Assembly: GCA_009908425.1 (NCBI GenBank)
Contig: JAAAPF010000351.1
Location: 1 to 46,105, forward strand
DNA length: 46,105 nt
DNA from: Alphaproteobacteria bacterium
Lineage (GTDB): Bacteria > Pseudomonadota > Alphaproteobacteria > Geminicoccales > Geminicoccaceae
Reading direction: 5' to 3'
Shown: positions 2,700 to 3,897 of the stretch, piece by piece
Layout of the letters: each line of letters begins with the position of its first letter
How positions within the stretch are numbered: the stretch's first letter is position 1
Notes under the pieces: model-generated
Databases searched by the model: none
What the model was told of the DNA's origin: nothing
Seen by the model: the letters and a program-made list of their open reading frames with translations, nothing else
Made by a program: the position numbers and the translations under genes

Positions 2700-2805
2700 G
2701 CCATTCCGGTCGACCTTAAGAAAATTGCGTATTACGTTACCGCCTATCGTAGATTTTCGACTGTGGGGTGAGCGTTGCCGCGCCAACCCCGCCGGGTAGG
2801 AGATC
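2700..2805 (+). promoter_or_regulatory. AT-richer leader and likely promoter of the repeat protein gene
   Basis: Bases 2716-2760 are clearly less GC-rich than their surroundings and contain several hexamers resembling -35 and -10 elements (TTGCGT, TATCGT, TTAAGA), but no single well-spaced pair stands out. A TAGGAGA ribosome-binding site at 2797-2803 precedes the ATG at 2810. The composition drop between two GC-rich genes is the main argument for a promoter. Confidence 0.4.
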
Positions 2806-2809
2806 CTCC

Positions 2810-3802
2810 ATGACGACGACCTCGAGCTGGCACCGCGCCCGAGCCGCCGCGACCGCCCTTCCCTTGCTGCTCGCCCTGGCGCCGGCGAGCGGGTTCGCCC
2901 AGAGCGCCGACCAAGCCATGCTGCTGCCCCCCGACGCCCAGGCGGGCGAATGCTACGCCCGGGTCTGGGTGCCCGAGGTCTATCAGACCCGGAGCGAGGA
3001 GGTGCTGCGCCACGAGGCCTACGAGGTCGTCGAGATCGTGCCGGCGCGCTACGAGACGGTCGAAGAGGAGGTGCTGGTCAAGGAGGCCACCACCCGCCTC
3101 GAGGTCGTCCCGGCCGAGTACGAGACGGTCGAGGAGGAGGTGCTCGTCAAGCCGGCGGAGCTGCGCTACGAGGTGGTCCCGCCGGCGTTCGCGACGGTCG
3201 ACGAAGAGATCCTCGTCAAGGAAGCCCACACCACCTGGAAGGTCGGCCGCGGCCCGATCGAGCGGATCGACACCGCCACCGGCGAGATCATGTGCCGGGT
3301 CGACGTCCCGGCCGAATACGCCAGCGTCGAGAAGACGGTGGTGCAGACACCGGTGGCCGTCACCGAGGTCGAGGCCCCGGCCGAGTACGTCACGGTCGAA
3401 AAGCAGGTGGTGGTCGAGCCGGCGCGCACCGTCGAGGTCGAGGTTCCCGCCGAATACCGCACGGTCGAGGTGCAACGGCTGGTGGCACCCGCCGAGACGG
3501 TGCGGACCAAGGTCCCCGCCGAATACGACGTGGTCGAGCGCACGGTGAAGGTGAGCGACGGTCACCTGGAGTGGCGCTCGATCCTGTGCGAGACCAACAC
3601 CACGCCCGACGTCATCCGCCGGCTGCAGACCGCGCTGGACGAGGCGGGCTACGACGCCGGGCCGGTCGACGGCTCGCTCGGCTACATGACCCGCCGGGCG
3701 GTCGAGGCGTTCCAGCGCGACCACGACCTGCCGACCGGTGAGTTGACCATGGAGACGCTCGACGCCCTCGGCGTCACGCCGCAACCGTCCTCCAACATCT
3801 GA
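2810..3802 (+). CDS. Exported 23-residue-repeat protein with C-terminal peptidoglycan-binding domain
   Basis: 330-residue protein with a signal peptide (cleavage probably after SGFA, residue 30). It carries eight 23-residue repeats starting at residues 55, 78, 101, 124, 167, 190, 213 and 236, with rough consensus PAEYxTVEexVLVkpA...xxV. They form two blocks of four. Each block is introduced by a Cys-containing GE-x-V stretch (Cys48 and Cys162), and a third Cys260 follows the last repeat. Residues about 264-324 form a PG_binding_1-like domain (DVIRRLQTALDEAGYDAGPVDG). The protein is probably periplasmic, anchoring an extended beta-rich repeat rod to the cell wall; function is otherwise unknown. 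ATG 2810 is chosen over the upstream GTG 2768 because of its TAGGAGA site and the signal peptide. Confidence 0.85.
   Translation: MTTTSSWHRARAAATALPLLLALAPASGFAQSADQAMLLPPDAQAGECYARVWVPEVYQTRSEEVLRHEAYEVVEIVPARYETVEEEVLVKEATTRLEVVPAEYETVEEEVLVKPAELRYEVVPPAFATVDEEILVKEAHTTWKVGRGPIERIDTATGEIMCRVDVPAEYASVEKTVVQTPVAVTEVEAPAEYVTVEKQVVVEPARTVEVEVPAEYRTVEVQRLVAPAETVRTKVPAEYDVVERTVKVSDGHLEWRSILCETNTTPDVIRRLQTALDEAGYDAGPVDGSLGYMTRRAVEAFQRDHDLPTGELTMETLDALGVTPQPSSNI
2972..3583 (+). repeat. Eight 69-base coding repeats in two blocks of four
   Basis: In-frame repeats of exactly 69 bases (23 residues), starting at 2972, 3041, 3110, 3179 and then 3308, 3377, 3446, 3515. The two blocks are separated by 60 extra bases encoding an inserted linker and the second Cys motif. 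The protein consensus is conserved more strongly than the DNA, so the array is old and held by selection rather than a recent tandem expansion. Confidence 0.85.
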
Positions 3803-3809
3803 CCCCGCG

Positions 3810-3842
3810 CCCGGCGCGGCGGGGCGACGCCGCCGCGCCGGG
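3810..3842 (+). terminator. Strong hairpin after the repeat protein gene
   Basis: Perfect 12-bp inverted repeat, 3810-3821 pairing with 3831-3842, with a 9-base loop, starting 8 bases after the stop codon. No T-run follows, so it may act as a Rho-assisted terminator or a 3' stabilising hairpin. Confidence 0.5.
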
Positions 3843-3897
3843 AACCGCGCTCCGCCCGCCACCGTTGGCGGCCGCAGGGTCCGAAGCGGAGCGCGCG

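Follow-up and report, generated by a model that had tools for sequence, protein, structure and literature searches.

Pal and Lpp are outer-membrane lipoproteins that bind peptidoglycan, and the OmpA-like peptidoglycan-binding domain is one that we take to correspond to PF00691. Among elongated proteins, rods of the SasG / G5-E type have a single-layer β fold, and the antiparallel coiled-coil arms of SMC proteins are two arms of one chain, matched in length and paired throughout. Bacteroidota OmpA-family proteins may carry repeats very similar to those described below, which could lower the novelty of what we report. PapS of Rhodospirillum rubrum is reported to be an OmpA-like peptidoglycan-binding outer-membrane lipoprotein (PMC11369160). 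Periscope Proteins are described as rods whose repeat number sets their length (PMC9704523).

The window analysed here, the whole stretch of 46,105 nucleotides from a Geminicoccaceae genome, encodes a 330-residue protein whose C-terminal domain makes it a clear member of the PG_binding_1 (PF01471) family; its N-terminal two-thirds, a repeat region, falls outside that family. The likeness to Pal, Lpp and PapS lies in the combination of a lipoprotein signal with a wall-binding domain, which would put those relatives that have both in the same place with the same double anchoring. Of 38 rows of relatives searched with a simple pattern, 27 have a lipobox, suggesting outer-membrane anchoring in those relatives, and two of the remaining rows have incomplete starts; the same scan found none in the 330-residue protein. 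Unlike PapS, which uses an OmpA-like domain, neither this protein nor the nine relatives scanned with Pfam matched the OmpA-like model.

With SasG / G5-E rods and Periscope Proteins the protein would share a repeat rod whose length is set by repeat number. Those rods fold locally, repeat by repeat or domain by domain, whereas here a single hairpin would form with repeats pairing across two arrays. Periscope Proteins are exposed at the cell surface and vary in repeat number within a population, while the variation seen here is between species, with one genome each. The G5 domain had no Pfam match in the 330-residue protein or the same nine relatives. Matched arm lengths recall SMC arms, which are built of helices rather than the β strands proposed here, and no kinship is implied. 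The β-hairpin stems of lysenin and aerolysin, which appeared in Foldseek lists, are likewise long two-stranded hairpins, but the likeness is one of local shape (rmsd ~28 to 62 Å in the listed rows) and nothing supports pore formation or kinship here.

Results

A wall-binding domain preceded by two arrays of 23-residue repeats

The gene and the parts of its product are as follows.

2810..3802, + strand: whole coding sequence, 330 amino acids and a stop; ATG at 2810, stop ending at 3802
2810..2899, + strand: signal peptide region, about residues 1–30, without a lipobox; read from the sequence, cleavage site not computed
2951..3238, + strand: arm A, residues 48–143 (Cys48 to Trp143), four 23-residue repeats; assigned from the repeats and covariation with arm B
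2951..2953, + strand: Cys48 at the base of arm A, putative disulfide partner of Cys260; in 59/59 counted relatives, 43 of them selected for this Cys
3239..3292, + strand: tip loop, residues 144–161, KVGRGPIERIDTATGEIM; best-conserved part of the repeat region among relatives with the same loop length
3293..3583, + strand: arm B, residues 162–258, four 23-residue repeats; assigned from the repeats and covariation with arm A
3293..3295, + strand: Cys162, at the putative tip; missing in 6/59 relatives
3587..3589, + strand: Cys260 at the base of arm B, five residues past Trp255; in 57/59 relatives
3614..3769, + strand: PG_binding_1 (PF01471) domain, residues 269–320; Pfam E 1.3e-13, structural matches to PG-binding domains with VIA Z up to 7.1

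The PF01471 match scores 51.4 bits against a gathering cut-off of 23, which makes the protein a PG_binding_1 member and bears out the original prediction of a peptidoglycan-binding protein; all nine relatives scanned with Pfam passed as well, and two short relatives (L049 and L050) are without the domain. The reading of the product as a secreted protein with a wall-binding C-terminal domain is supported. On the opposite strand, a 372-residue open frame (2744–3862, − strand) is probably a shadow of the high G+C coding sequence.

Counting from the residue that precedes Pro, repeats start at 54, 77, 100 and 123 in arm A and at 166, 189, 212 and 235 in arm B, a spacing of exactly 23 residues within each block and 43 across the blocks. 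At the DNA level, a direct-repeat finder returned a six-copy family with 69-nt spacing and 129 nt between blocks, and Tandem Repeats Finder reported a period of 69 (score 183) at 3031–3220. The translation and the DNA repeats confirm what had been predicted from the letters, namely eight exactly 23-residue repeats split 4+4, with a third Cys after the last. The protein contains only three Cys residues: Cys48 in GECY, Cys162 in TGEIMC and Cys260 in WRSILCETN (Cys_A, Cys_B and Cys_end in the relatives). The 'GE motif' said to head each block does contain Cys in both, but as GEC in one and GEIMC in the other, similar and not identical. The Cys-to-Trp spacings of 95 and 93 residues recur, identical to the residue, in many relatives, which argues that the pattern exceeds chance.

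The wall-binding domain is ordinary, and the repeat region is one for which we found neither a family nor a paper in the open-access literature. The repeats match no Pfam or NCBIfam model, either in the 330-residue protein or in the relatives scanned, so that an existing family for the repeat, named at the outset as something that would refute the idea, did not turn up there; a repeat-region profile matched nothing among PDB sequences even at E 10, and the open-access papers searched in PubMed Central held no description of this repeat. Two sets of candidates were set aside. An alignment to the L,D-transpeptidase 8da2 consists of scattered matches only, ahead of the wall-binding domain, and the NCBIfam rows HxsA, SleB and PRK06132 score far under their cut-offs and are centred on the wall-binding domain.

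The two arms change length together

Among 59 two-block relatives, both blocks carried the same number of repeats in every case: 52 are 4+4, three 3+3 (L034, L063 and L049), two 2+2 (L048 and L050) and two 6+6 (L115 and L116). The automatic counter could return unequal numbers, from 1 to 8 per block, and required Cys/Trp anchors, thereby selecting for those residues; for 16 further two-block proteins the anchors were set manually, using the letters of the motifs. L118 and L119 are 4+4 by rounding only, their B arms being 5–6 residues short, and the divergent L120 could not be counted. Fragments at contig ends were left out, and the Granulosicoccaceae-class proteins counted are those among the matches listed. 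Measured from leading Cys to closing Trp, block length follows 23n+3 in A and 23n+1 in B, frequently exactly.

In an unconditioned listing, four-block proteins read A3 A3 B3 B3, and equal numbers fail in two of them, L114 (one repeat in the second block) and L123 (one repeat in the first). In L104 and L108 the first closing Trp is replaced, with the Cys spacing the same. The L114 gene of G802 occurs at two places with equal scores and has an in-frame stop. In L123 (G881), the one-repeat first block lacks Cys and is fused to an extended N-terminal region that probably contains a membrane helix. The two 6+6 proteins carry ~170 additional N-terminal residues with several Cys ahead of arm A, and a Cys-Asp-Cys within arm B; in the short relative L155 the frame stops five residues past the last Cys.

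In a tree of 79 columns, with many forks unresolved and every third four-block name included, the 6+6 pair groups with L084/L086, which are 4+4 (support 99/80). The 3+3 proteins L034 and L063 adjoin L032, another 4+4 protein (support 87/82). Because these pairs sit beside different 4+4 proteins, both arms changed length together more than once. Equal numbers across 2, 3, 4 and 6 repeats would not be enforced if each block folded alone, as a β-meander or β-solenoid in which each repeat stacks on the next, so that the blocks would be two like domains in tandem, an arrangement for which the one repeat motif common to both blocks might otherwise speak.

Covariation places the blocks antiparallel

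Covariation between blocks was calculated as mutual information with APC on 37 of 40 4+4 proteins, after removal of rows sharing ≥95% identity with a preceding row; the set averages 52% identity and has an effective number of ~24. Equal arms, with Cys_A and Cys_end at their ends, had led us to expect beforehand an antiparallel A-B sum near 306. The best three of 136 antiparallel offsets were sums of 305, 307 and 306 (z 5.2, 5.1 and 4.8); the next antiparallel offset reached z 3.4 (sum 310) and the best parallel one z 2.3. The best offset lay within 305–307 in 96 of 100 bootstraps; when the A and B halves were re-paired at random 200 times, z never rose above 1.8 and so never came up to the observed value. 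Offsets shifted by whole repeats, and so still in phase, gave z ≤2.1. Duplication does not account for the signal, since facing positions are mirror images and not homologous positions. The covariation covers most of the arms, with the exception of a stretch at 80–93 that has no peak at 305–307 and peaks at 310 instead, and residues i and i+2 covary in both arms, as expected of extended strands. Covariation between the blocks thus lies on one antiparallel diagonal, as an extended antiparallel A-B hairpin calls for.

Within blocks, the best hairpin offsets were aperiodic and gave z 2.8 over 6 pairs and z 3.4 over 12 pairs, compared with 5.2 (96 pairs) between blocks. Covariation at i,i+23 is weak (mean 0.24 in arm A and 0.12 in arm B), and although stacking of neighbouring repeats would produce it, homologous repeats can cause it too. 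We consider separate folding of the two blocks improbable. Two blocks forming the arms of a single antiparallel β-hairpin, paired along its length, is very probably the correct structure. The original prediction had spoken of a duplicated four-repeat module; the shared motif stands, but the blocks behave in covariation as antiparallel pairing arms, with equal repeat numbers in 59/59.

The correlation of charge across proteins was most negative at sum 306, and was also strongly positive at sum 274. When opposite minus like facing charges were counted over 112 sums, the highest values per protein were 4.8 at 307 and 4.3 at 306, against a mean of −0.1 (s.d. 1.35). Repeat position 10 is Glu in 119/148 A repeats and Lys/Arg in 106/148 B repeats, and the two face each other at sum 307. 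Three of the four position-10 rungs in the 330-residue protein are Glu-Lys/Arg; summed over all facing positions, its charges balance out and do not favour pairing (opposite v like: 5 v 5 at 305, 6 v 6 at 306 and 7 v 10 at 307). For hydrophobic residues, facing pairs are most frequent at sum 300 rather than 306. A charge difference between whole blocks, with B more positive than A, was considered and dropped because it holds in many proteins but fails in others, such as L045, L046, L065, L067 and L077.

Four-block proteins served as an independent set, of which the same identity filter kept 31 of 32 rows (effective depth ~21), from a listing chosen for 72/72/70/70 spacings and therefore equal in repeat number by construction. 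Antiparallel A1-B2 (z 5.0) and A2-B1 (z 3.5) both peaked at the expected register, while A1-B1 and A2-B2 gave no signal there; the A2-B1 value is barely above parallel in-register B1-B2 (3.4) and antiparallel A1-A2 (3.1) in the same scan. The charge test did not distinguish alternative pairings in these proteins. The covariation fits a nested pairing in which the chain would form a longer hairpin of two storeys, with strong A1-B2 and weak A2-B1 pairing.

Low-confidence structure predictions mirror the same register

The AlphaFold model of the 330-residue protein has 18 strands, nine per block, alternately ~7 and 12 residues long. All eight strand breaks of arm A mirror those of arm B with a midpoint sum of 306, including an irregular three-residue break at 92–94 / 212–214. 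Confidence is low (pLDDT 66.9, pTM 0.45). A four-block model from Sulfurovum, also of low confidence (pLDDT 67.5, pTM 0.37), has its mirror points at 439/2 (A1-B2) and 456/2 (A2-B1), sums that were worked out by hand. Models were judged from strand positions, and periodic breaks by themselves would mirror in any register.

Fold searches with these low-confidence models gave structural matches to the repeat region of Z 2.4 at most and Foldseek rows with rmsd of at least ~28 Å; Foldseek returned nothing from the PDB at E <0.001. A viral model matched at E 5e-4, with an rmsd of 30 Å. We take the Foldseek matches as shape likeness only.

Stretches of the model with pLDDT <50 (such as 85–111 and 196–221), along with a composition rich in Pro-Ala and charge, could also be read as a flexible or disordered spacer that links the signal peptide to the wall-binding domain. 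Such a spacer would hardly hold exact spacings across dozens of relatives, equal arms, conserved Trp and Cys positions and rung-specific covariation, and we regard it as very improbable. Disorder and lack of conservation had been named at the outset as what would speak against the repeats; they are conserved and predicted as β strand, though with low model confidence.

In the hairpin we propose, residue i of arm A (48–143) would face residue ~306−i of arm B (162–258), placing A repeat 1 opposite B repeat 4, A repeat 2 opposite B repeat 3, and onward. Each 23-residue repeat would supply a 12-residue and a 7-residue strand with Pro-Ala-type kinks between them, the kinks of both arms facing; support for this arrangement is good. 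At its open end, or base, the hairpin would have the N-terminus together with Cys48, Cys260 and the PG_binding_1 domain, and at its closed end the conserved tip loop with Cys162. Gain or loss of a facing repeat pair would then alter the length of the rod and leave the hairpin intact, and four-block relatives would be its longer two-storey version.

Cysteines at the proposed base and a conserved tip loop

All 59 two-block relatives have Cys_A, 57 have Cys_end and 53 have Cys_B; 43 of these relatives had been selected by Cys-requiring anchors; in the hand-anchored subset (n=16), Cys_A and Cys_end are each found in 16/16 and Cys_B in 10/16. The two relatives without Cys_end have a Cys directly ahead of Cys_A instead. 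Where Cys_B is lost, Cys_A and Cys_end are retained, and because these two are kept together while Cys_B is lost, a disulfide between Cys48 and Cys260 probably clamps the base of the hairpin. Of the bridging between blocks first suggested for the cysteines, the part involving the first and last Cys is likely to hold, at the base; the middle Cys would be at the far tip. Metal bridging between the blocks is unlikely for the same reason of geometry, since antiparallel pairing would keep that middle Cys remote from the other two. More generally, binding of a metal or cofactor between the blocks has the conserved Cys as its only argument, with Cys162 at the opposite end from Cys48/Cys260 under antiparallel pairing and no further conserved ligand cluster noticed by eye, and it is the least probable of the alternatives we considered.

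Nowhere in the repeat region is conservation higher than in the tip loop, among relatives whose loop has that length: mean column entropy is 0.63 bits, compared with 1.26 and 1.27 in the arms (29 rows with 19-residue spacing). Seven relatives have an extra Cys in the tip loop that could supply an intramolecular partner for Cys_B. In 46 of the 59, a set that includes proteins chosen by the Cys-requiring counter, the three block Cys occur with no additional tip-loop Cys, and Cys_B has no obvious partner within the chain in most relatives that lack the extra one. An unpaired Cys_B would fit a tip-to-tip dimer, with an intermolecular Cys162-Cys162 bond giving a double-length rod that carries a PG-binding domain at each end and cross-links wall to wall rather than acting as an antenna. 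This concerns function only and is compatible with the hairpin itself. Given that Cys_B is missing in 6/59 relatives and that the 46 are partly a product of how they were picked, we think such a dimer rather unlikely, while giving it more weight than any of the other alternatives.

Distribution

The source assembly has one full-length copy of the gene, the best match of its own genome. Among 60 relatives, a full-length match occurs only in one of the same family (G005), the remaining matches covering the C-terminal part, mostly the wall-binding domain alone. A repeat-only profile matched 10/289 sampled genomes of its own class (source genome included), at least 47/369 genomes in the class of a Granulosicoccaceae genome, 2/297 in the phylum of a Desulfobacterium genome and 5/150 in the phylum of a Sulfurovum genome; at order level it matched 8/12 genomes in one order and 1/2 in another (central genomes included throughout). 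Nine more related loci were found in named records. The distribution is broad but patchy, spanning proteobacterial, desulfobacterial and campylobacterial genomes.

Seven stretches of viral contigs fitted a pattern, and none was confirmed as a relative. The plasmid search matched two weak records, and a Methylobacterium stretch from it contained no open frame by the pattern applied. No shared neighbour genes were seen by eye across six loci compared. Two different 4+4 paralogues adjoin in the same order in G224 and G110 (L042/L051 and L043/L052), and five genomes (G930, G986, G987, G990 and G991) each have a two-block 4+4 member together with a four-block member.

Discussion

Taken as a whole, the explanation of the repeat region as a hairpin rod seems to us likely, though with less assurance than the hairpin structure itself. 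The base would be fixed to peptidoglycan, and in most relatives a lipidated N-terminus would apparently provide a second anchor, in the outer membrane. Because the N-terminus and the wall-binding domain both lie at the base, the rod would keep the tip away from the wall and would not span between its own two ends. With the rise of ~0.33 nm per residue that is standard β geometry, a 4+4 rod of 95 residues could measure up to ~30 nm if fully extended, which is an upper bound. A ribbon of just two strands whose faces are polar would be expected to be unstable on its own, and an oligomer or a partner may be needed for the stability of the hairpin. As the likeliest function we tentatively suggest that the protein is a wall-anchored rod that holds its conserved tip at a set distance, presenting it to a partner or, via Cys162, to a second copy of itself; this function is a possibility drawn from the architecture, and we hold to it much less firmly than to the fold.

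On balance we favour, by a modest margin of confidence, the view that this is a new architecture, which might be called a zipper hairpin: the two repeat arrays in a chain would pair with each other instead of stacking on their neighbours, length would change only by facing pairs, and the molecule, with its open end on the wall, would serve as a measuring rod in the periplasm, topped by a conserved head, in versions of 2, 3, 4, 6 and 3+3 storeys. A family so far annotated, at best, by its wall-binding domain would thereby acquire a name and a set of rules. If this is right, the copy numbers of the two arrays are tied by pairing, and nature already supplies, across genomes, rods graded in length by steps that share a base and a tip. 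They would offer a ready system for studying how distances are set in the envelope, what the tip contacts and how repeats that face each other come and go in concert.
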